Virus record (IMG/VR): IMGVR_UViG_3300015360_000063
Span: 1 to 50,238 of that record
Source of the DNA: a virus
Direction: 5' to 3' (one strand)
DNA: 50,238 bases
The first letter of the stretch is position 1; every line of letters starts with the position of its first letter. Below are positions 1,674-49,175 of this stretch, in pieces. Under the pieces are notes generated by a model. The model searched no databases. It was given only the letters and a program-made list of their open reading frames with translations, and was not told where the DNA came from. A program made the position numbers and the translations under genes.

Positions 1674-4166
1674 ATGAATCAAGAATTTGAATACATAGCA
1701 GCACTCCAGGATTTCTCAAAATCACTGAAGTACTTCACCGACTCTATCAAAAACCAGGTCATAAACGAGAATAAAACCTTCAAAGACTCTATATCATCTA
1801 CTAAAGACCAGGCTAAAATGATGATGGAGATGGCAGAAGAGCTGAAAGTGATTTCTGCGACTACTGCTTCAACAAAAACAAACACCGAAGAGATTCTGGA
1901 TATTGTAAAAGGCATAAAACAAGAGAAAAAAAGCGGGATACTTGATAAGCTTTCTGGTGCCAAAGACAAGGCCAAATCTATGGCGGAAGGAATAAAAAGC
2001 GTGGCCTTAATGGCTGGCGCCATACTCGCAGTCGGTGCGGCATTCAAGATTATTGGTGACGTGGATTTTAAATCGGTACTGGCACTATCAGTAGCACTGC
2101 CGCTCATGGCTATGGCATTTAATCATGTGGGCGAATCGACAACATCTATTGGAGATTCTTTGATAATTGCCGGCAGTATTGTTATAATGTCTATGGGTAT
2201 TGCTATTGCCGGTGTAATATTATCAGATATACCGGAATTGTCATTCATGCAACTCGTATCGGCTGTCGGCGTTGCTGCGGCTGTTGGTGTTGCCGGTTAT
2301 CTTTTAGGAATGGCCGCTGAAAAAATAGGAACGAAAGGAATTGCTGCGATTTATTTAATTGCTCCAGCGTTACCACTGATTGCCTGGGGTATTGCCAAAG
2401 CTGCCGAAGAATTATCTGACATAAAACCGGTAACAACGAGCACGATAATATCAGCTGCCGGTGTCGGTATTGCCATGGGCTTAGCATTGATACCACTGGC
2501 ATACGCTGGGAAAATTATTGGAAATGACATTAATAGTTTATTTAAGCTTGCTGTCATAATGCCAGTTATCGCCGGCGCTATATATCTATCGGCATTAGCC
2601 TTAGAAAATACACCCGAAGTTGACGTATTCAAGACTATAAGTTCGACATTAGGAATAACTGTATCTATTGTCATATTTGGCGCAGGCATATGGGCACTTG
2701 ACAAATTGGGTATAAATGTGGGCACAGCGTTAAAAGGTAGTGTTTCAATGGCTATACTAGCAGGCGGTATTATGGCGGTGTCACACATAATCGCGCTGGG
2801 AAATTACACGAACCAGCCAAGTCTCGAATGGGGGCTGTCGGTCGGTCTGGTATTATTGGGCGGTGGTTTAATTGCCACGGCTTTAACATATATGGGCGGA
2901 TTAGGAGTCATTATACCGGGCACAATAGCCATGTTGGCTGTTGCAGCCGGCGTTATGGCAGCGTCGCATATTTTAGCATTTGGCGATTATGGGACTTACC
3001 CGAGTTTGGAATGGGCACAAGGTGTCGGCTTGTCGATGGGCGCTTTCGGTCTGGCTGCGGTCGCCTTAGGATTTGTCATGATGACCGGCGTAGGAGCCGT
3101 GGCATTAGGCTTTGGTATTTTAGGGATGGCCGGTATTGCGGCAGGTTTAGTAGCAGTATCTGCGATTATAGGTACTGGCAATTATACCGGAGGACCTAGT
3201 GTCGAATGGGCTACGGGTGTTGGTATGGCGCTGAAAGGTTTTACCGATGCGGTATCTGCGGTGAGTCCGTCAGGATGGGATTTAATATCCGGTAATACCA
3301 TGCAAGATAAAATAAATGCGCTGGTACAAATTGGAGCAGCTTTGCCGATGATAGCCGCTGTCATAAGCAAAGGAAATTACAGCGGTGGACCGACAGCGGA
3401 TTGGGGTATAGGTGTGGGTGCCGCGATAGCAGGTTTTGCTAATGCTACTGCGTCAATGGAAGATATTGATTTAGACGAGTTGCCTACACTATTACTATCA
3501 TTGATGCCAATAGCGAATTTAATGAAATATTTTGGTGCAACATTGAGCAGTGCGAAATTCGACAATTACCCGTCTGTGGATTGGGTCGATGGAATAAAAA
3601 CGTTTATAGAAGAATTTACAGAACTTGACATGGTCGATAATGCCGAAAATTCGGCAAAACAAATACTGTCATTGACTAAGAGCTATTTATTATTGGCCGG
3701 TTCGATCAATGTATTGGGCAAGGCGTTGAGTACGATAACTGCTGCACCGGACTTGACCGGCATTTATGGCGGGTTGGTCACATTGTCGTTAATTGACGGC
3801 GATAAGTTATCAGCTACATTAGACGTATTAAACGGTAAAAAAGACGAATTCCAGAATGTTCTCAGTATGATTCAGGCGCAGTCTTCTGTCAAGATAGACG
3901 AGAGCACTTTCGCATTCAACAAAGACAAAAACACCACGCCGCAGCAACAACCAAAGTCGTCAACGTCTTTGGGCCCGGCTTCTGTGTCTTCAGGACCGGT
4001 CGTAAAGGCGCTTCCGAAGCCTAATGCCGTCCCTGCTCAGCCGGATAAGCAGGAAAAACTGTTGAACCAATTGGTGACGCTCATGGGACAAATGAACAAT
4101 GTTTTAGGCGAAATAGCAGACAACACATCTCAAAAAATACACGAGTCAAACATTATTAGTAACTAA
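1674..4166 (+). CDS. Probable tape measure protein with ~64-residue repeats
   Basis: 830 residues. The N-terminal 110 are helical and charged. Residues about 110-640 are strongly hydrophobic and glycine/alanine-rich, with many membrane-like helices. The C-terminal 130 are polar, with a proline-rich linker and a final amphipathic helix. From about residue 375 a module with the signature G-(N/D)-Y-x(2-4)-P-(S/T)-x2-W recurs at roughly 375, 437, 502, 567 and 630, a regular 62-65 residue spacing. Long, helical, hydrophobic and repetitive architecture near other tail genes is typical of tape measure proteins, which set tail length and can help pass DNA through the membrane. No sequence-specific motif proves this. 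A late-type promoter box precedes it. Confidence 0.6.
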   Translation: MNQEFEYIAALQDFSKSLKYFTDSIKNQVINENKTFKDSISSTKDQAKMMMEMAEELKVISATTASTKTNTEEILDIVKGIKQEKKSGILDKLSGAKDKAKSMAEGIKSVALMAGAILAVGAAFKIIGDVDFKSVLALSVALPLMAMAFNHVGESTTSIGDSLIIAGSIVIMSMGIAIAGVILSDIPELSFMQLVSAVGVAAAVGVAGYLLGMAAEKIGTKGIAAIYLIAPALPLIAWGIAKAAEELSDIKPVTTSTIISAAGVGIAMGLALIPLAYAGKIIGNDINSLFKLAVIMPVIAGAIYLSALALENTPEVDVFKTISSTLGITVSIVIFGAGIWALDKLGINVGTALKGSVSMAILAGGIMAVSHIIALGNYTNQPSLEWGLSVGLVLLGGGLIATALTYMGGLGVIIPGTIAMLAVAAGVMAASHILAFGDYGTYPSLEWAQGVGLSMGAFGLAAVALGFVMMTGVGAVALGFGILGMAGIAAGLVAVSAIIGTGNYTGGPSVEWATGVGMALKGFTDAVSAVSPSGWDLISGNTMQDKINALVQIGAALPMIAAVISKGNYSGGPTADWGIGVGAAIAGFANATASMEDIDLDELPTLLLSLMPIANLMKYFGATLSSAKFDNYPSVDWVDGIKTFIEEFTELDMVDNAENSAKQILSLTKSYLLLAGSINVLGKALSTITAAPDLTGIYGGLVTLSLIDGDKLSATLDVLNGKKDEFQNVLSMIQAQSSVKIDESTFAFNKDKNTTPQQQPKSSTSLGPASVSSGPVVKALPKPNAVPAQPDKQEKLLNQLVTLMGQMNNVLGEIADNTSQKIHESNIISN

Positions 4167-34454: not shown

Positions 34455-35549
34455 ATGACCATTCAAAATGTAGGAAACGCGTCGGCATCGGCATTAGATT
34501 TCGATTTTGCGACAAAAGACGTCTACAAAGAAACAAACCCGTTCGGACAAGCATTAATGGAGTTCGACGCACGCACGGGCATTAAGCCCGACATAAAAGT
34601 CGGTGTAAAAGTGACTGGAACATTAATCTCCAAGAGCGATAAATACGCTTTCGTAGATTTCAAAGGAAAGACATCTGTATGCATTGATGTGACGTCACAG
34701 GAATCGTTGTTACTGGCAAAAATCGAAGTTGGCTCAGAAATCACAGTACTGATAACCTCAGTCACTGACAAAGACACATTCGAAATAGGCGGTTCATTAT
34801 ATCAATTAAAGATGATTGAGATGACTGACTTCTTGGACAGCGTTTATGACAGACGCGGGGGGCTTACCGGTATTCCATCGGAACTTAACCATGCCGGTTA
34901 TAACGTAACCATTAACATCGAGGACCAACAGTTGAGTCTGTTCATGCCACACTTATTGACTGATGTCAATAAATTACCTGACCCTAGCTCAATCATAGGA
35001 ACTGAAATTGAATTCTGTCTAGAACGGGTGAGAAAAGACGGCAATACGTCTTATATTGCATCCAGAAAGGCATTTCTATTGAACATGGCAGTCAAAGAAA
35101 AGCGCAACCTGAAGAAAGGTGGACAATACGACGGATTTGTGACGGGTTGTACTGATTTTGCCGTATTCGTGCAGTTTAATAAGTGTCTTACCGGAATGAT
35201 TCACAAGTCGAATCTTACAGAACAAGCTGTCGCGTTATTGCCAAATATCCCAGCAGGAACGACAATTGAGTTTTATGTCAAAGACATAATGAAAGACAAA
35301 TTGTTCTTGACACAGGTAATCAGAGATTCTTTATGGGATTCCATAGCAATCAACGACGTATTGCCAGGAACAATTTCGAGCATAAAAGATTTCGGAGTTA
35401 TGGTCGATTTAGATTACGAGACTAAAGGCCTATTACACAAGTCAGTGTTACCAAATCCGGTCAATTCGTATAATAAAGGCGACAAAGTCAATGTCATTGT
35501 CACAAACGTGAACAAAAACAACAGACAGATAACTCTAGCTCTAAAATAA
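34455..35549 (+). CDS. S1-domain RNA-binding protein, ribosomal protein S1-like
   Basis: 364 residues made of consecutive OB/S1-type units. Unit 1 is at about 49-118 (GVKVTGTLISKSDKYAFVDF). A degenerate unit lies at about 140-215. The clearest two are at about 222-290 (YDGFVTGCTDFAVFVQF..GMIHKS) and about 297-364 (LPGTISSIKDFGVMVDLD..GLLHKS, ending ITLALK). The G-x-(V/I)-x3-x-x-(F/D)-(F/G)-(A/V)-F-V core and the G-(M/L)-(I/L)-H-K-S turn are diagnostic. S1 recruits mRNAs lacking strong Shine-Dalgarno signals to the 30S subunit. A phage copy could bias translation to phage messages or act in transcription antitermination. The gene ends one base before the next gene starts. Confidence 0.85.
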   Translation: MTIQNVGNASASALDFDFATKDVYKETNPFGQALMEFDARTGIKPDIKVGVKVTGTLISKSDKYAFVDFKGKTSVCIDVTSQESLLLAKIEVGSEITVLITSVTDKDTFEIGGSLYQLKMIEMTDFLDSVYDRRGGLTGIPSELNHAGYNVTINIEDQQLSLFMPHLLTDVNKLPDPSSIIGTEIEFCLERVRKDGNTSYIASRKAFLLNMAVKEKRNLKKGGQYDGFVTGCTDFAVFVQFNKCLTGMIHKSNLTEQAVALLPNIPAGTTIEFYVKDIMKDKLFLTQVIRDSLWDSIAINDVLPGTISSIKDFGVMVDLDYETKGLLHKSVLPNPVNSYNKGDKVNVIVTNVNKNNRQITLALK

Positions 35550-36048: not shown

Positions 36049-36057
36049 ATATATAAT
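36045..36057 (+). promoter_or_regulatory. Late-type promoter motif
   Basis: TTTTATATATAAT overlapping the most upstream ATG (36056) of the terminase paralogue, which argues that translation really begins at 36086. Confidence 0.5.
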
Positions 36058-36085
36058 GTATACAAATAAATCAAAATATCGACAT

Positions 36086-36985
36086 ATGAGAATTTTTAAA
36101 ACAGAAGACATAAACAGGATAATTGAAAAAATTAATCTGGGACATAAAATGTCTAGGAAAAATAATATTTTTTTCAGACACCAAGAAGGCACGTTAGATG
36201 ACGACATTTCTGTGTTATTATCGCAAGACGAGCTTATAGAATATGGCAAGTGTGCCAATGATATTTGTTATTTTATTGAGTCATGCTGTGGTGTGAAATT
36301 GAGACAGTATCAGAAAGAATGGATAGACAATTTCATGAACAACAGGTTCATGATATATTGCACATCGAGACAGACCGGGTATTCCGCCGTCATGGCCGCG
36401 GTGTATTTGCACTACATGATATTCAATAAAAATAAAACCATATTAGTCGTATCGAATAAATGCGCGTCTGCCGTAGAATTTATGCACAAACTGTTTAAAC
36501 ATTATCAGAGAATACCATATTGGATTAAACCTGGCATTGTCACAAAAAATAATAAAAATCTTAAATTTAATAACGGTAACCAAATACGCATGCGGTCCGG
36601 AATAAAAAGTAAACCCACCGAGTTTAGTATTGATTTGTTATCATATATGGAGTTTTCGCATATCCCACAGTCAACACCAGATATGCAATATAACAACACG
36701 TTAGTGCCTGAACTATGTGCAAACACAGAATCTAAGATATGTATACAATCACAACCGGCCGGTTTTGACAGCTTTTATCAATTGATTAACGACTCAGAAC
36801 GTAAACCTAACGACCCAATGAAGAATATCTACAAGACTGTAAAGACATATTGGTGGGAAGTAGACGGGAGAGATGACACATGGAGACAACGTGAGATAAA
36901 CATTATCGGCGCCGACGCATTTGCGCGGGAATATGACCTACAGTTTGTATCGAAAGCCGTTGTACAGACGACAATAAAAATATAA
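36086..36985 (+). CDS. Degenerate terminase ATPase paralogue (P-loop-dead)
   Basis: 299 residues from the ATG at 36086 (309 from 36056, which overlaps the promoter box). It aligns along its whole length with the ATPase domain of the adjacent terminase, including FxKCAxDIxYF, R-(Q/D)-Y-Q, the long helix after the P-loop, KPG(I/L)-x-(N)-x-(N)-x-K and a shared block after it. The catalytic motifs are altered: Walker A SRQTGYS instead of SRQTGKT (Lys and Thr lost), Walker B LLSYMEFSHIP instead of FLYMDEFAHIP (Asp lost), and coupling motif SQPAG instead of STPNG. There is no nuclease domain. The intact frame suggests a retained, non-hydrolysing role, for example as a terminase partner. This is inference. 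Confidence 0.8.
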   Translation: MRIFKTEDINRIIEKINLGHKMSRKNNIFFRHQEGTLDDDISVLLSQDELIEYGKCANDICYFIESCCGVKLRQYQKEWIDNFMNNRFMIYCTSRQTGYSAVMAAVYLHYMIFNKNKTILVVSNKCASAVEFMHKLFKHYQRIPYWIKPGIVTKNNKNLKFNNGNQIRMRSGIKSKPTEFSIDLLSYMEFSHIPQSTPDMQYNNTLVPELCANTESKICIQSQPAGFDSFYQLINDSERKPNDPMKNIYKTVKTYWWEVDGRDDTWRQREINIIGADAFAREYDLQFVSKAVVQTTIKI

Positions 36986-37698: not shown

Positions 37699-39933
37699 AT
37701 GAAAAAAATCATAAATAGAATTCTATTTGACATAATTGAAAAGATAGAGTCATATCAGTACAGAAATACCACTTTAGACCAAGACTGTGTATTAAAAAAA
37801 ACAAAAAACATTACATTCACTGACAAAAAAGATTTGTACGTGGATTCGCCGGAAGGCTGGGTTAAGGTGACTGAAATAAACGAGACACAACCATATAAAA
37901 TATGGTTTATGAAAACAGAAAATGGCAAAGAACTGTTTTGCGCCGATAACCATATCGTGTTCGATAGCTTGGGTCAAGAAATATTAGTTAAAGAATTAAG
38001 TGTAGGCCAACACATAATCACTCGTGACGGATTCGAAAAGATTACTGTTATGTATGTGTACAATACTTCCAATAGTATGATAGATTTGACCGTAGGCGGC
38101 AAAGAAATGAGGTATTACACAAATGATATTTTGAGTCATAACACGATATGCGCGGCAATAACACTACTACATTATTCTATTTTTAATACAAATAAAGGTA
38201 TAATGGTTGTAGCGAATAAGGGCGAGACGGTTATAGAGATTTTGGACAAGATTAAAAATATATACAAGTTACTGCCATTCTTTCTTAAGCCGGGGCTTAT
38301 AAACTGGAACACCAAATCCATAGTTTTTGACAACGGCTGTCGTATAAAATCACAGGCACGTTCAAAAGAACCGGCGATCGGTTTTACGATAGACTTTCTC
38401 TATATGGACGAGTTTGCTCACATTCCGAGGAGTATAATAAACCACTATTACAAGGCCGTTATACCCACAGTGTCGTCCATCAAGAATTCTAAGGTGGTCA
38501 TAACGTCGACACCAAACGGCGCCAATCTGTTCAAAGATTTGGTCATGGGCGCGTCGTTGCCTAATGGGCATGCAGACAAGAATATGTACAGCCTGATAAA
38601 GGTGCTGTGGTATCAAGTACCAGACGGCAAATTTGAAGACGGTACGACCGGGACAAGATTCGACGCACGGCTTTACCCATTGGCATTTGAAATGGCGACA
38701 CACAAGTTCAGTGTCGAGAAGCTCGTGAAACACCTACAAGGTCTCAATTTCAAGGTAGCTATAGAACAGGAGACTACTGATACTGGCAATAAAGATTTCG
38801 TACGTATATTATACAAGGACGGCGTCACAGATGTCGAATCGATCAAGAAGATGGATTTAGACGGACTGAATGTTGCGAAGATTTGTACTATAACGAACTG
38901 GAAAGAGCAGGAGACTAAACTGATCGGTGGCGAAGAGGCATTCAACCAGGAATACGGATGCCAGTTCATTGCCGGGTCTAAGCGGGTGTTGAGCGCGCCA
39001 AAGGCGAAGGAGCTCGAAGCGCGTACCGAAGTTTATAAGACCAGAGAGATTGAGATTCTGACAAAGAGACTGCGATTCACGTATAACGAGCTGCGTTGGG
39101 CACCTGATTATATAGAGCACGAGAGAAACAACTACTACTGGGTTTCCATGATGGATGTGTCAGAGGGTTTGGGACTGGATGACTCGGTAATCAATCTGTT
39201 CAGGCTGATGGTGAGGCCCAAATCTTGGTTGTTGGAAAACAAGATCAAGACGATGTACGACGCGTTCTACCTAAAACAGACGGGCATATACAATTTTAAC
39301 CGATTAGACCACAAGAAGGAACTGCCTGAGTTATTTTACATGTTACATTTCGAGTACTTAAATCCCGAACGCGTTAAATCCGTTGTAGAATACAACGGGC
39401 CGGGTTCCACGTTCATAGTGGCGCTCAACCAGGTGTTTGACGGAAACAACGATTTCGGTAGTCACGTGCTAGTCAGGTATAAACATAGGACGGATGACAA
39501 CACAAAAAAAATGGGTCTTAAGGTCAGCCGTAACAAAAAAGAGCTGGTGAAATCGTACATAGACTGTATCGAGACGGACATGCTGTATGTAGACGAGAAT
39601 ATCACGCTGGACCAGATGGATAATTTCATAAAGGTTGACACCAGGAGCGGTGACGTGACGTATCGTGCTGACGCAGGACACGACGATATAGTTATGACGT
39701 TAGTCGGCGGCGCCACATATTTTGATACCCAGGATTATAAAAATATGTGTTTTAACTATTATAACGAGCTTTCTGGAGAGTACCAGGGGTTAATTGACAA
39801 GGCATTAGACCTGGAACACAATCCTAATGCTATATCGTATAAGAGCATGAGCGCGGCTCTGGCCAAAAGTAAGAAATCAATAAGCCGTACAAACAGATTT
39901 TCTGGTGGACGAGGCCGTTTTATGGGGAAATAA
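37699..39933 (+). CDS. C-intein fragment plus terminase large subunit C-terminal extein
   Basis: 744 residues. Residues 1-148 are the C-intein: block B-like GKELFCADNHIVFD, block F-like MIDLTVGGKEMRYYTND and block G ILSHN with the terminal His-Asn, followed by Thr149 (codon 38143) as the +1 residue. The remaining 596 residues are the terminase: Walker B FLYMDEFAHIP (about 233), coupling motif STPNG, and the RNase H-like nuclease with MMDVSEG (about 485), VVEYNGPG and GHDDIVMT (about 661). Relative to the paralogue upstream, an extra ~80 residues are inserted before the ATPase end. With the N-piece the spliced terminase would be 718 residues. It packages DNA into the prohead at the portal. Confidence 0.88.
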   Translation: MKKIINRILFDIIEKIESYQYRNTTLDQDCVLKKTKNITFTDKKDLYVDSPEGWVKVTEINETQPYKIWFMKTENGKELFCADNHIVFDSLGQEILVKELSVGQHIITRDGFEKITVMYVYNTSNSMIDLTVGGKEMRYYTNDILSHNTICAAITLLHYSIFNTNKGIMVVANKGETVIEILDKIKNIYKLLPFFLKPGLINWNTKSIVFDNGCRIKSQARSKEPAIGFTIDFLYMDEFAHIPRSIINHYYKAVIPTVSSIKNSKVVITSTPNGANLFKDLVMGASLPNGHADKNMYSLIKVLWYQVPDGKFEDGTTGTRFDARLYPLAFEMATHKFSVEKLVKHLQGLNFKVAIEQETTDTGNKDFVRILYKDGVTDVESIKKMDLDGLNVAKICTITNWKEQETKLIGGEEAFNQEYGCQFIAGSKRVLSAPKAKELEARTEVYKTREIEILTKRLRFTYNELRWAPDYIEHERNNYYWVSMMDVSEGLGLDDSVINLFRLMVRPKSWLLENKIKTMYDAFYLKQTGIYNFNRLDHKKELPELFYMLHFEYLNPERVKSVVEYNGPGSTFIVALNQVFDGNNDFGSHVLVRYKHRTDDNTKKMGLKVSRNKKELVKSYIDCIETDMLYVDENITLDQMDNFIKVDTRSGDVTYRADAGHDDIVMTLVGGATYFDTQDYKNMCFNYYNELSGEYQGLIDKALDLEHNPNAISYKSMSAALAKSKKSISRTNRFSGGRGRFMGK

Positions 39934-45100: not shown

Positions 45101-45143
45101 ACCATTTATATGACCGATGTACACTTATGTTTAGTCTTGGTTG

Positions 45144-45229
45144 GGGTAGAGACGAGACTCGAACTCGCATGACTTTTTACGGTCTCCGGGTCACAACCGG
45201 GCTGGATTCCATTACCAGATACACTACCC
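45144..45229 (-). tRNA. tRNA-His (GTG), long variable arm
   Basis: About 86 nt. Anticodon loop TTGTGAC on a CCGG stem, T-arm GCGAG-TTCGAGT-CTCGT, acceptor GGGTAGTG/CTCTACCC with one T-T mismatch, and an encoded G-1 paired with C73, a tRNA-His hallmark. Unusual 16-nt variable region (GAC..GTC stem possible), unlike normal tRNA-His. Confidence 0.65.
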
Positions 45230-45246
45230 GTGTATGGGTCATTTTT

Positions 45247-45322
45247 GGGTGTAGAGTGGGACTCGAACCCACGGCATCTCGTACCACAAACGAGCGCTCT
45301 GCCAAACTGAGCTATAAACACC
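45247..45322 (-). tRNA. tRNA-His (GTG)
   Basis: Anticodon arm CTCGT-TTGTGGT-ACGAG, D-arm GCTC..GAGC, T-arm GTGGG-TTCGAGT-CCCAC, normal 5-nt variable loop, G-1 opposite C73. Acceptor has two mismatches. Confidence 0.85.
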
Positions 45323-45345
45323 ATATTACTCATTCTAAGAACTTT

Positions 45346-45428
45346 TGTTACTGTAACAGGACTCGAACCTACGTTGCAGAATTAACTCGACAGATTAACA
45401 ATCTGGACCGTTTGGGCACTACGGCAAC
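45346..45428 (-). tRNA. tRNA-Asn (GTT), long variable arm
   Basis: About 83 nt. Anticodon loop TTGTTAA with CAGA/TCTG stem, T-arm GTAGG-TTCGAGT-CCTGT, and a ~17-nt variable region with a GTT/AAC stem. The acceptor GTTGCCG/CAGTAAC appears extended by two pairs. The D-arm is hard to fold, so ends are approximate. Confidence 0.55.
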
Positions 45429-45440
45429 ACTGAAATGTTG

Positions 45441-45512
45441 CGGATATGGATGGGTTCGAACCAACGACCTACCGGTTAACAGCCGGTTGCTCTACCACTG
45501 AGCTACATATCC
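45441..45512 (-). tRNA. tRNA-Asn (GTT)
   Basis: Canonical cloverleaf: acceptor GGATATG/CATATCC with discriminator G, D-arm GCTC..GAGC, anticodon arm ACCGG-CTGTTAA-CCGGT, and a normal short variable loop. Confidence 0.92.
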
Positions 45513-45592
45513 TTATGATTTAATTCTATATTATCGCTATTATCACTATTATCGCTGTCTTCCATGACGTTTTCGTTTTTATTTATTTTTTG

Positions 45593-45663
45593 TGACCCCG
45601 GATGGAATCGGACCATCATCTTGCGGTTAAAAGCCGCAAGCTCTACCATTGAGCTACGAAGTC
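45593..45663 (-). tRNA. tRNA-Lys (TTT)
   Basis: Anticodon arm TGCGG-CTTTTAA-CCGCA, T-arm GATGG-TCCGATT-CCATC, acceptor GACTTCG/CGGGGTC (two G-T pairs), discriminator A. Confidence 0.92.
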
Positions 45664-45680
45664 ATTACATTATTTCTTCG

Positions 45681-45752
45681 TGCACCCAGAAGGACTCGAA
45701 CCTTCAGCCTTCCGGTTAAGAGCCGGAAGCTCTACCATTGAGCTATAAGTGC
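45681..45752 (-). tRNA. tRNA-Lys (CTT)
   Basis: Anticodon arm TCCGG-CTCTTAA-CCGGA, T-arm GAAGG-TTCGAGT-CCTTC, acceptor GCACTTA/TGGGTGC, discriminator A. Closely similar to the Lys(TTT) gene beside it, so probably a duplication. Confidence 0.92.
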
Positions 45753-45836
45753 ATAATCTTATTAGAGACCTGACCCACAGTTTATGGTTCAAGTCTTATC
45801 GTTTTCGTTTCACAGGTTTCATCTTTTTCATAATAT

Positions 45837-46202
45837 TTATGGTTTTAATCCGTTATTATATCTTTCAATTCGATAATTATTTCTTATTGTATTTTTATTT
45901 TTACCTTTATTTTTACCACAATATGTTGGTTGTAATGCATCACAGTTTTTACATACCAATTGGCAGTTATTCAATCTCCAATTGTCTGAATTTCCATCAA
46001 TATGGTCAAATGTCAAGGGTATTAATTGATTTAACCAGTGTGTATTTTTACATATTTTATATTTATGTCCTTGTATCTCAATTAAAAACTGTTTTGCTCT
46101 TCTTACTTGATACACTGCATTTGTTTTTAAATTTAAACAATCAAAAAATACTTCTTCTCGTAATACTTTTTCTTTATACTCTTCTTTTATTGGTATACTC
46201 AT
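45837..46202 (-). CDS. HNH endonuclease inserted in the tRNA cluster
   Basis: 121 residues. TFDHIDGNSDNWRLNN followed by CQLVCKNCDALQPTYCGKNKGK is the HNH core with the usual H-N pairs and a CxxC zinc-binding element. This type is common as free-standing homing nucleases in phages. It lies between tRNA-Lys(CTT) and tRNA-Trp, with different, more A/T-rich composition, as expected for a mobile gene. Confidence 0.85.
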   Translation of the reverse strand: MSIPIKEEYKEKVLREEVFFDCLNLKTNAVYQVRRAKQFLIEIQGHKYKICKNTHWLNQLIPLTFDHIDGNSDNWRLNNCQLVCKNCDALQPTYCGKNKGKNKNTIRNNYRIERYNNGLKP

Positions 46203-46218
46203 TCATTTTTATTTTTAG

Positions 46219-46289
46219 CACTTAGACTAGGATTCGAACCCAGAACGATGAGGTTGGAGCTCATCATGTTACCGTTACACTATCTAAGT
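46219..46289 (-). tRNA. tRNA-Trp (CCA)
   Basis: Perfect acceptor ACTTAGA/TCTAAGT with discriminator G, anticodon arm ATGAG-CTCCAAC-CTCAT, T-arm CTGGG-TTCGAAT-CCTAG (one mismatch). Confidence 0.9.
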
Positions 46290-46336
46290 ATGTTTTGCTG
46301 AGAGATTTGGTTTAATACACAGTCCAGCAGCATTTG

Positions 46337-46409
46337 TACGACTTCTTGGTTATGCACCAAGCTCTTTGGATTTTCAGTCCAACGCTTTCACTAGATTAGC
46401 TTAAGCCGC
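46337..46409 (-). tRNA. tRNA-Phe (GAA), aberrant T-loop
   Basis: Acceptor GCGGCTT/AAGTCGT, D-arm GCT..AGC, anticodon arm TTGGA-CTGAAAA-TCCAA, T-stem CTTGG/CCAAG. The T-loop is TGCATAA instead of the usual TTCRAN, losing the T55 and A58 needed for the D/T-loop contact, so it may be degenerate or folded differently. Confidence 0.7.
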
Positions 46410-46659: not shown

Positions 46660-47097
46660 TCAATTATTTTCAATTATGGTCAGCAGATATGCCTTCAACT
46701 CCTTGTCATTAGGCTTGGTATCATAGCGTTTCAGGACGAAAATATCCCAGGAGTCTTCGGCATATTTCCCTATGCCATAACATTCGCTGGGCCTGACCCA
46801 TTCCTTGTGTGTGAAGTCGTGGGAGAACTTCCTTATGGTAACAGCACGTCTCCTGTGTAATCCCAGAGGCCTTATGATATTCTCTATGGCAGGCAACATG
46901 CCATTGGACGCGCTCTCCGGTGTCGGATACTCGTCGAAGAACTTGTAGATGACTTTGTGCACTTGTGTGCCTGTGGTCTGGTTCAACATGATACATCCTA
47001 TGAATATCTTCCAGGGCTCGGTGATGAATATTTGTTGAATCATCTGTCCGTGTTTCTCTATCGCGGTCTGTTGTCTAATCCTATTCGTAATGTGCAT
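46660..47097 (-). CDS. HhH-GPD DNA glycosylase, MBD4-like
   Basis: 145 residues from the ATG at 47097; a longer frame would run back through a terminator and into a tRNA. EPWKIFIGCIMLNQTTGTQV (27-46), PLGLHRRRAVTIRKFS (77-92) and YGIGKYAEDSW (107-117) form the helix-hairpin-helix-Gly/Pro-Asp core. D131 in KPNDKELKAYL is the candidate catalytic aspartate. The pattern is closest to the catalytic domain of MBD4, which removes T or U mispaired with G. No iron-sulphur cysteines are present, unlike MutY or Nth. A role in repairing deaminated or modified phage DNA is inferred. Confidence 0.8.
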   Translation of the reverse strand: MHITNRIRQQTAIEKHGQMIQQIFITEPWKIFIGCIMLNQTTGTQVHKVIYKFFDEYPTPESASNGMLPAIENIIRPLGLHRRRAVTIRKFSHDFTHKEWVRPSECYGIGKYAEDSWDIFVLKRYDTKPNDKELKAYLLTIIENN

Positions 47098-47126
47098 GAC
47101 GCAATTATGCGTATAATTGTGACAAA

Positions 47127-47153
47127 ATAAAAAGACCCAGATAAATCTGGGTC
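47127..47153 (-). terminator. Terminator after tRNA-Met
   Basis: 8-bp stem GACCCAGA (47134-47141) with TCTGGGTC (47146-47153) and a minus-strand T-run, directly beyond the tRNA-Met 3' end. Confidence 0.9.
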
Positions 47154-47157
47154 TGTG

Positions 47158-47232
47158 TAGCGTCAATGGGAGTCGAACCCAATATCTGTAGGGTTATGGG
47201 CCCTCAATGATTATCCGTTTCACTCTGCCGCA
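47158..47232 (-). tRNA. tRNA-Met (CAT), initiator-like anticodon stem
   Basis: Anticodon arm GAGGG-CCCATAA-CCCTA: three G-C pairs as in initiator tRNAs, though position 33 is C instead of T. Acceptor TGCGGCA/TGACGCT has a T-T mismatch at 1-72, another initiator-like trait, plus one G-A mismatch. D-loop carries GG. Could be initiator-like, elongator, or an Ile tRNA read after lysidine modification. Confidence 0.8.
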
Positions 47233-47346
47233 GAACTTAAAAATGCAATTCCTCACACAATTAAATTGATTGAGCTATTCACTGTATGCACCCCGTACTG
47301 TACACATACTTTTTGATTTAACCTGGGGATAGCTTGTAGCTTTTTT

Positions 47347-47382: not shown

Positions 47383-47416
47383 AATAAAAAAAATAAACTA
47401 GCATCACTCGTTTATT
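47383..47416 (-). terminator. Terminator of the putative large RNA
   Basis: 7-bp stem AATAAAC (47392-47398) with GTTTATT (47410-47416), 11-base loop, and a run of T on the minus strand. Confidence 0.65.
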
Positions 47417-48010
47417 TAATGAGATATGACTTAACATTTACAGTTAATTGACACACCTGTCCAGTAAGACAGTTCATACCCCCTTTGCCCGTATAATCAT
47501 TGTCAGGATTATACACTGATACTACGGTGTTCTTTCTAAGTTTTCGGCCGGCATGCTAATTACACACCCAGCTTATTCACTTCTAATTCATTTACATGTT
47601 GGGATGCAAACAAATTGCTCTTTTGGAGTCAATACAAAAGTTATTATCTTTTGTAGATAGGCACATCAGAACCACGTAGTTTAATTTTGTCGAAAGCCGA
47701 CTTTCCAACCCTGAAATTTTATGATTTGCATCATATGTATATCATCAGATAGGAATAGATTTTGTGCTTCTTAAGGATAAATTAACAAATCCCCATAATT
47801 ATTCAGTCTACTACACGAGCATTAGCGATGCTCGCTCTACAACTAAATCACTGGTCTCTTTAGTGGTCGCTAAACCCTTTGTAAGACCGGCAAATTTATG
47901 TGCAACTCTATCAGGCATAAACCACCTTACCAGTTCTATCTCACGACCGAACGCTGATTGCACTTGCCTTTGTATATCGCTATTGCTAGTGTTCTGGTTC
48001 AGCAATAAAC
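47385..48010 (-). ncRNA. Candidate large structured RNA (~630 nt), GOLLD/ROOL-like setting
   Basis: No credible gene lies here, yet the stretch is full of stable inverted repeats. These are: CGAGCAT/ATGCTCG (47816-47834); GTATAATC/GATTATAC (47491-47514); TACAAAAG/CTTTTGTA (47633-47655); TTTAG/CTAAA (47859-47874) nested in GGTCT/AGACC; ATTGCT/AGCAAT (47982-48006); ATGAT/ATCAT closed by a loop that reads GCAA on the minus strand, a GNRA tetraloop (47722-47735); and a long-range helix of 6+5 bp pairing 47889-47905 with 47958-47968. A terminator ends it on the minus strand, next to a tRNA. The 64- and 110-codon frames crossing it on opposite strands look incidental. Sequence identity to a known RNA class was not tested. 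Confidence 0.55.
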
Positions 48011-48120
48011 CAAAATTTAATATCCGTACAACTCGGAAATATTTTATAAAGAACGTTTTTTACTTACTTTACAATTATAAGTGTTATATGTCATAAACAG
48101 AAATATGTTTAATAAAATAT

Positions 48121-48474
48121 TTATTTCTGGTCGATTATTTTTTTTATCTCGTCATCGACAGTGTTGTTACATGTCGTGTGTAAGGGTATCGTGTAAATAT
48201 GGAAATACTCATTTGGCGGTATTATGATGCCTTGAGAACTCGCCCACCACATCCTGTCGGTCGCGATTATTTCCATTACCGGGTCTTTCTTTTCTATATT
48301 CTGATTGATATTATCACGTATAATATCAAGAGCGTCTTCAGATATGTGTAAGTCCAAACGGTTGAAACCCGAAAATAATATGCCCGTCCCTATGCTCTTT
48401 AATTTCGTGCCGTATTGCAATACCGTGATAATTAACCACTTATTATGTGTCTTAATCTCTACCGAATGTGTCAT
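48121..48474 (-). CDS. Uncharacterised protein, 117 aa
   Basis: 117 residues, alpha-beta, with a tryptophan pair (RMWWASSQG). No family recognised. It is 14 bases downstream of the next minus-strand gene, so the two probably form an operon. Confidence 0.7.
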   Translation of the reverse strand: MTHSVEIKTHNKWLIITVLQYGTKLKSIGTGILFSGFNRLDLHISEDALDIIRDNINQNIEKKDPVMEIIATDRMWWASSQGIIIPPNEYFHIYTIPLHTTCNNTVDDEIKKIIDQK

Positions 48475-48488
48475 AGTTTATTTGGTTA

Positions 48489-49175
48489 TTAATAATTCTG
48501 AAATTTACTGGCTCTGACATCTTGGATTTTCACTTTCATGATCGACGCGTAACGCGAACGTACAGAATCGCGCGATAAATGTTTGGCAAATATGTGGATC
48601 TCGTTATTGCCGTTTTTGTGATAAACCACCCAGTTCAGTGGTTCAGTGGCCGATTTTTTCGCGTGATTCTCGGTGTAAAAAACGAATAACGGGTCGCGCT
48701 GATTTACCGGGTTTTCCGTTAATATATTATTAGAGGGTTCTGCGAATGCGCCAGCGCCAGCGTGTAAAGGCTTTGTAGGTGTAAGTTGCGATAATAATGA
48801 TTTTCCATCAAGCGTTTTGCATTCTGGCAACAACACTCCATCACTGTGATATAATGGTGGGGTTGTCGGAAAATCATTCGTTTCGGTGTTATTTTTCATT
48901 TTTGCGGCTCTTGAGTATTCTGGATTTGCATCCAGAAATGTTTGACTGAATGAGTATGTGTTATATCCCAGACTGACAACGTTGCGGTCATATTTATACG
49001 TGTCGTTATCGTCGGCCGTGTAGATTGCCTCAACCGTCTCGTGGACTTCGCCCTGGTTCGCAAAGTAGTCTAATTCTCTCAATTGATTTTTTATCTCCAG
49101 CGTGGTCGTCTGACCGTTTGTGTGAATCAGTAAGTCCATTACCGATTGTACTGCGAATTCCGTTAGTTTCTTCAT
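48489..49175 (-). CDS. Uncharacterised protein with N-terminal winged-helix-like region, 228 aa
   Basis: 228 residues. Residues ~1-75 (HTNGQTTTLEIKNQLRELDY and onward, ending in an SLGYNTYSF strand) look like a small winged helix-turn-helix. A disordered proline-rich middle and a C-terminal alpha-beta domain (about 165-228) follow. It might bind DNA or RNA; no specific family is claimed. Confidence 0.7.
   Translation of the reverse strand: MKKLTEFAVQSVMDLLIHTNGQTTTLEIKNQLRELDYFANQGEVHETVEAIYTADDNDTYKYDRNVVSLGYNTYSFSQTFLDANPEYSRAAKMKNNTETNDFPTTPPLYHSDGVLLPECKTLDGKSLLSQLTPTKPLHAGAGAFAEPSNNILTENPVNQRDPLFVFYTENHAKKSATEPLNWVVYHKNGNNEIHIFAKHLSRDSVRSRYASIMKVKIQDVRASKFQNY

Follow-up and report, generated by a model that had tools for sequence, protein, structure and literature searches.

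A candidate new class of large ornate RNA beside the tRNA genes of a contractile-tailed phage

A hairpin-rich stretch of about 0.6 kb beside the tRNA genes of a virus (a 50,238-base virus record, herein referred to as the window) raises the question of whether it encodes a large ornate RNA and, if so, whether that RNA is a divergent ROOL or GOLLD or the representative of a class of its own. To our knowledge, very few classes of large ornate cage-forming RNA have been described, and the function of the cages is unknown. A new class at a GOLLD-type site in the lineage of the largest phages would hence provide an independent handle on why phages keep such RNAs beside tRNAs; features common to the classes beyond sequence, such as location, size, kissing loops and partners, should point to function.

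The phage is contractile-tailed, with tail sheath, terminase, portal and head proteins encoded in the window. Among annotated phages, tail sheath and portal place it closest to the uncultured phages LR745206, LR756504, LR756502 and LR756501/LR756503 (634-735 kb, 38-43% protein identity), followed by LR756500 (462 kb, 31%) and, further off, Flavobacterium phage MaF61 and the Lak phages. Judged by the size of these nearest annotated relatives (634-735 kb), the window is a member of a huge-phage lineage. A 735-kb phage has been described in a study of huge phages (PMC7162821), to which we take the LR records to belong, although the accession link is presumed only. IMG/VR holds further sheath relatives (L002-L007; 53-67% identity, contigs of 8.8 to 314 kb), and a tail-sheath search of GTDB returned zero carriers. 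The large terminase is apparently split across several frames, one with a weak Terminase_6N match (36056-36985); a second terminase frame (37699-39933) opens with ~140 residues that lie ahead of the Terminase_6N domain and close with an intein-like SHNT junction. S1 RNA-binding domains occur in a protein at 34455-35549.

The sequence-only reading had placed a structured RNA at 47385-48010, in a stretch without a convincing gene. Its view of the coding content stands: the 64- and 110-codon frames have no family match, neither is open, let alone conserved, in the homologue described below, and no relatives of the 64-aa frame were found in IMG/VR; we therefore reject a coding explanation. The G+C content is indeed above that of the flanks (37.1% versus 30.2% and 20.0%). 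The minus strand of 47385-48010 folds to -166.7 kcal/mol, compared with -144.2 +/- 7.3 for 120 dinucleotide shuffles (z -3.1, with 2 of the 120 as low), and the plus strand reaches a z of -1.9; however, such single-sequence energies are weak evidence, since several nearby tRNA-bearing segments of 300 bases score equal or better.

The features of the locus are collected in table 1. The proposed location was correct and the 5' boundary was not, homology reaching to ~48059. The 5' end given here is the limit of homology and the 3' end is the terminator-like hairpin; neither has been mapped experimentally. It is possible that the conserved 5' block, of which no second exact copy exists elsewhere in the window, is a promoter or the RNA 5' end, but its role is unknown. 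The predicted terminator is represented by a terminator-like hairpin with a T run, which a simple terminator scan requiring shorter loops and more G-C pairs did not report; the homologue lacks the T run of the window at the corresponding 3' place. The tRNA-Met-like gene downstream is ~85% identical to the tRNA-Met of a Levilactobacillus phage. Just 5' of tRNA-Met, three related phages share the 12-mer GTGAGGAATTGC (window 47245-47256(-), L016 and L080); it may be a processing or promoter signal, although its role is unknown. Homing-endonuclease-like genes sit amid the tRNA arrays (HNH at window 45837-46202(-), NUMOD3/GIY-YIG at L016 3208-4077(-)), and the window encodes an HhH-GPD DNA repair-like protein among the tRNAs (46660-47166(-)).

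Table 1. Positions of the RNA, its predicted elements and neighboring genes in the window (L016 is the homologous stretch of a second virus)
Feature	Position	Strand	Evidence or remark
p117 and p228 genes	48121..49175	-	Upstream of the RNA; synteny anchors common to the homologue
Large structured non-coding RNA	47386..48059	-	~674 nt; homologue L016:~2000-2740(-), covariation, folding energy
Conserved 5' block AAAACGTTCTTT..TAAAATA	48040..48059	-	Near-identical in window and L016 save a 6-nt insertion
H1, UCCG/CGGA hairpin	48023..48037	-	Paired in both sequences, invariant
H2, 8-bp hairpin	47992..48015	-	8/8 pairs kept; 2 double and 1 single compensatory changes
Two-part nested helix	47889..47968	-	Outer 47968-47964/47893-47889 (5 bp), inner 47963-47958/47905-47900 (6 bp)
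H3, GNRA (GUGA)-capped hairpin	47936..47949	-	Core invariant; one flanking pair varies
H4, long-range 20-bp helix	47461..47933	-	47933-47914/47480-47461; 20 consecutive pairs including G-U in window
H5, stem GGUCU/AGACC	47853..47888	-	Invariant apical loop GGUUUAGCGACC
Candidate kissing pair	47822..47873	-	UUAGCGA (47873-47867) with UCGCUAA (47828-47822); 7-nt perfect complement, invariant loops
H6 and H7, two stacked 8-bp helices	47801..47848	-	Conserved internal loop GUAGA/GUAGU, loop UCGCUAA
H8, GGGAU/AUCCU hairpin	47774..47793	-	Invariant in both; alternative partner AUCCC at 47605-47601
H9, long-range helix	47523..47678	-	47678-47668/47533-47523; 9/9 scored pairs kept, 6 double compensatory changes
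H10, 6-bp hairpin	47633..47655	-	After invariant GTGCCTATC; 6/6 pairs kept, 4 double changes
H11, 13-bp hairpin, CCCAA loop	47585..47616	-	13/13 pairs kept; 2 double and 2 single changes
H12, possible pseudoknot UGCCU/(G/A)GGCA	47486..47663	-	5/5 pairs kept, one single-sided change
Terminator-like hairpin and T run	47386..47416	-	AATAAAC-GAGTGATGCTA-GTTTATT-TTTTTT, read directly from the sequence; paired in window MFE
tRNA-Met-like gene (CAT)	47158..47232	-	Directly downstream of the RNA; 25.5 bits, short of the cut-off of 29 for tRNAs
tRNA array (His, His, Asn, Lys, Lys, Trp and a tRNA at 46337-46409)	45143..46409	-	

A homologue of the region exists in a second virus. When the region was compared by blastn with the whole records of the relatives, the sole match was to IMGVR_UViG_3300037606_000137 (G005, 110 kb), in two collinear segments (77% over 125 nt, E 1.8e-18, and 82% over 43 nt). 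The extended stretch of G005 (L016) contains conserved blocks from the 5' AAAACGTTCTTT to window ~47485, and the 3' part is more diverged. Gene order is the same in both viruses, with p228 and p117 upstream (p228 is 44% identical to L016:5708-6259(-), and a p117-like ORF lies at L016:5286-5648(-)), followed by the RNA and then tRNA-Met. Placement beside tRNAs, which had been remarked upon for the window alone, is real and common to the homologue, which is flanked by tRNA-Ser and tRNA-Met.

Comparison of the two sequences provides the strongest evidence for a conserved fold. We aligned the window and L016 by MAFFT, without structural information, and listed the stems that both sequences can form: three stems have at least four double compensatory changes (column-shuffle mean 0.06, 0/200), stems common to both reach 13 bp (7.6 in column shuffles, 0/200), and no column shuffle attained the highest count in a single stem, five double changes. 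A 12-helix structure on this sequence-only alignment has 98.8% of 160 cells paired and 23 compensatory double changes, whereas slid controls, in which partners were moved by 1-3 columns, retain 35-47% of pairs and 2-5 double changes; as the 12-helix structure was picked on the same alignment, the column-shuffle test is the less biased of the two. G-U pairs fill 13 of the 104 scored cells of the best helices, where the other strand would have A.C mismatches, and we therefore assign the RNA to the minus strand. The covariation counts are small in absolute terms because only two sequences are known, and two sequences cannot tell which helices are universal. Support is weak or alignment-dependent for H4, H5, H8 and H12 (H4 and H5 need structural re-alignment), and H1, H8 and the candidate loop pair, being invariant, remain untested by covariation. 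Within the limits of two sequences, the covariation check that had been suggested for the structured-RNA claim was passed, and a covariation-supported complex fold without a conserved frame qualifies the locus as a large ornate structured RNA. On this comparative evidence, we have little doubt that a real structured RNA occupies the locus.

Two elements proposed from the window alone recur in the homologue. The nested 6+5 bp helix is present: its outer part keeps 4/5 pairs with 2 double changes, and in its inner part, on the plain alignment, 4 of 5 scored pairs persist and 1 double change occurs. The GNRA-type hairpin (GUC-GUGA-GAU, 47947-47938) does not vary between the two sequences, apart from the flanking pair 47949-47936, which changes from C-G to U-A. 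In the ungapped core formed by H6 and H7, neither sequence loses any of the 16 pairs, and 7 double compensatory changes occur. Plain alignment mis-registers H5, keeping 80% of its cells; read from the sequences, the homologue has GGAUA/UAUCC, which amounts to three compensatory changes if the stems are aligned by structure. The counterpart of H4, which would cross the two-part helix, is a 10-of-11-pair helix at the corresponding place of the homologue that is not aligned column by column. The loop cores UUAGCGA and UCGCUAA are predicted to be unpaired in both sequences, and the stem carrying UCGCUAA varies by compensation while its loop stays invariant. Since shuffling the invariant letters produces a non-overlapping, G+C-containing complement of this kind in 147 of 5000 cases, the contact is suggestive and not proof; it could be an intra- or intermolecular kissing interaction. 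Some kissing or pseudoknot contact is likely, though not proved.

Pattern scans (three of viral sequences, one of GTDB), protein-guided scans and two covariance models all failed to reveal a third member. The 12 loci beyond G005 that we inspected from motif scans of IMG/VR and GTDB have no similarity outside the motif, and many are coding-like; the p228-guided search returned G005 only. Over 20 records, the covariance models (R1 and R2) recovered the window and G005 only, two weak W05 matches being rejected as sited in long open frames; a W03 blast match was rejected as well, showing no further similarity upon inspection. Phage and plasmid collections yielded only the tRNA-Met or chance-level matches, and the tRNA clusters of L002 and of a 314-kb relative with a similar cluster (G003) contain no homologue. 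Upstream of tRNA-Met, L002:10935-11557 and L080:4104-5046 are non-coding and hold tRNA-like, partly degenerate sequences without a homologue of the RNA. That the other relatives searched yielded no homologue indicates that the RNA is uncommon in the lineage and perhaps dispensable. It is either rare or fast-evolving; exact-motif scans are blind to a fast-diverging homologue, which could have been missed.

Does the RNA belong to a known family? No Rfam family exceeds its cut-off in the region or the homologue, permissive thresholds giving only sub-threshold matches (e.g., to eukaryotic snoRNAs). The tmRNA, RNase P, group I/II intron and HEARO models, which the sequence-only reading had listed for searching, do not match, nor does ARAGORN find a tmRNA. 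With the ROOL model (RF03087), neither the window nor any of 19 other records gives a match at E<=1, and the region and its homologue stay without one even at E<=10; likewise, the model of the conserved 3' domain of GOLLD (RF02032) fails to match the window and G005 at E<=1 and the region and homologue at E<=10. These negatives are informative because both models find their own members in controls: 130 bits for the ROOL of L. salivarius, and 287 and 275 bits for GOLLDs of LR745206 and LR756502. Indeed, GOLLD occurs inside the tRNA arrays of these 634- and 642-kb phages (L074:3376-3781 in LR745206 and L075:3186-3592 in LR756502), where the match lies between tRNA-Met and another tRNA in LR745206 and ends ~10 nt before a tRNA in LR756502. 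Related phages thus carry a known cage-forming RNA at the type of site that, in the window, is taken by an RNA without recognisable kinship to it. In the partial literature collection available, we found nothing relevant joining huge phages and GOLLD, an unrelated plant review aside.

The best reading is that the RNA represents a new, rare class and not a divergent ROOL or GOLLD; of the two possibilities first entertained, a divergent member or a new class, only the latter is supported. A highly diverged GOLLD or ROOL beyond the reach of the Rfam models would share the size class and genomic niche seen here, and GOLLD is present in relatives; however, we consider it improbable given the failure of both models in the region and homologue beside strong scores in the controls, the lack of significant blastn similarity to the GOLLDs of LR745206 and LR756502, and the fact that, by eye, the conserved motifs of the RNA are not seen in the displayed GOLLD or ROOL consensus, nor the motifs of the conserved 3' region of GOLLD in the RNA. 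A very long structured leader or attenuator controlling the tRNA-Met transcript would likewise precede tRNA-Met immediately and be separated from it by a terminator-like hairpin, but the RNA is larger and has more helices than the leaders known to us, we noticed no conserved anti-terminator pairing and the T run is missing from the homologue, making this a highly improbable explanation. It is scarcely credible that the hairpins are incidental features of a decayed gene or of successive degenerate tRNA genes: the two frames exist in the window and degenerate tRNA-like stretches do occur in the tRNA clusters of relatives, yet neither frame is conserved, no tRNA model matches inside the region and the double compensatory changes contradict decay, under which they are unexpected.

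We favor, with moderate confidence, the hypothesis of a new class of large, ornate non-coding RNA of huge phages (~0.67 kb) that stands alone, is transcribed from the tRNA island and self-assembles like ROOL and GOLLD; expression, oligomerisation and function are inferred. Minus-strand transcription from the tRNA island would be ended by the RNA's own terminator just before tRNA-Met, giving a discrete transcript to ~47386, an inference that rests on the terminator-like hairpin. If the analogy with GOLLD and ROOL holds, the RNA would accumulate during infection, and self-association through conserved hairpin loops, possibly UUAGCGA with UCGCUAA, may yield a homo-oligomeric RNA particle that is presumed to serve the phage tRNA or translation programme. 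The RNA would thereby occupy the niche that GOLLD holds in the related 634- and 642-kb phages. It probably acts like GOLLD and ROOL, that is, as an abundant, self-assembling RNA expressed with tRNAs, although this is an inference from analogy. A new-class RNA that forms no cage, being instead a monomer or protein-partnered (e.g., a regulator, decoy, ribosome-associated RNA or tRNA-processing scaffold), fits all of the fold evidence equally well; large RNAs are not all oligomeric, the raiA motif being a monomer (PMC12286853), and the kissing may be intramolecular. We regard a non-cage RNA as unlikely, if far from negligible: the GOLLD parallel in related phages and the complementary invariant loops favor assembly somewhat, and nothing excludes the alternative. 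More specifically, the self-assembling RNA could be a third, evolutionarily unrelated class of phage cage-forming RNA that replaced GOLLD in one huge-phage lineage, a proposal that we advance only tentatively. If true, large self-assembling RNAs would be a recurrent, exchangeable solution tied to phage tRNA islands.

Among known systems, OLE RNA is likewise a large ornate bacterial RNA of similar length, but no Rfam model matches the window RNA, and OLE is a cellular RNA of Bacillota and not a tRNA-associated phage RNA. GOLLD is closer in kind, as a large ornate phage RNA with many hairpins at a tRNA-island site near tRNA-Met, although many of its members exceed 0.8 kb, compared with about 0.67 kb here. 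The location typical of ROOL and GOLLD is found for the window RNA, with its tRNA array and adjacent tRNA-Met, and likewise in G005; GOLLD env-38 was itself first found downstream of a Met-tRNA (PMC12286853). ROOL resembles the window RNA in length (~0.6 kb), in its association with phages and tRNA islands, and in its long-range helices and kissing loops (PMC12286853). Both known RNAs assemble into RNA-only cages with kissing loops and are found close to phage tRNA islands (PMC12286853); the ROOL cage is a homo-octamer and that of GOLLD a 14-mer, GOLLD being induced during phage lysis. ROOL is as abundant as 16S rRNA in one strain and GOLLD rises during lysis (PMC12286853, PMC5643018).
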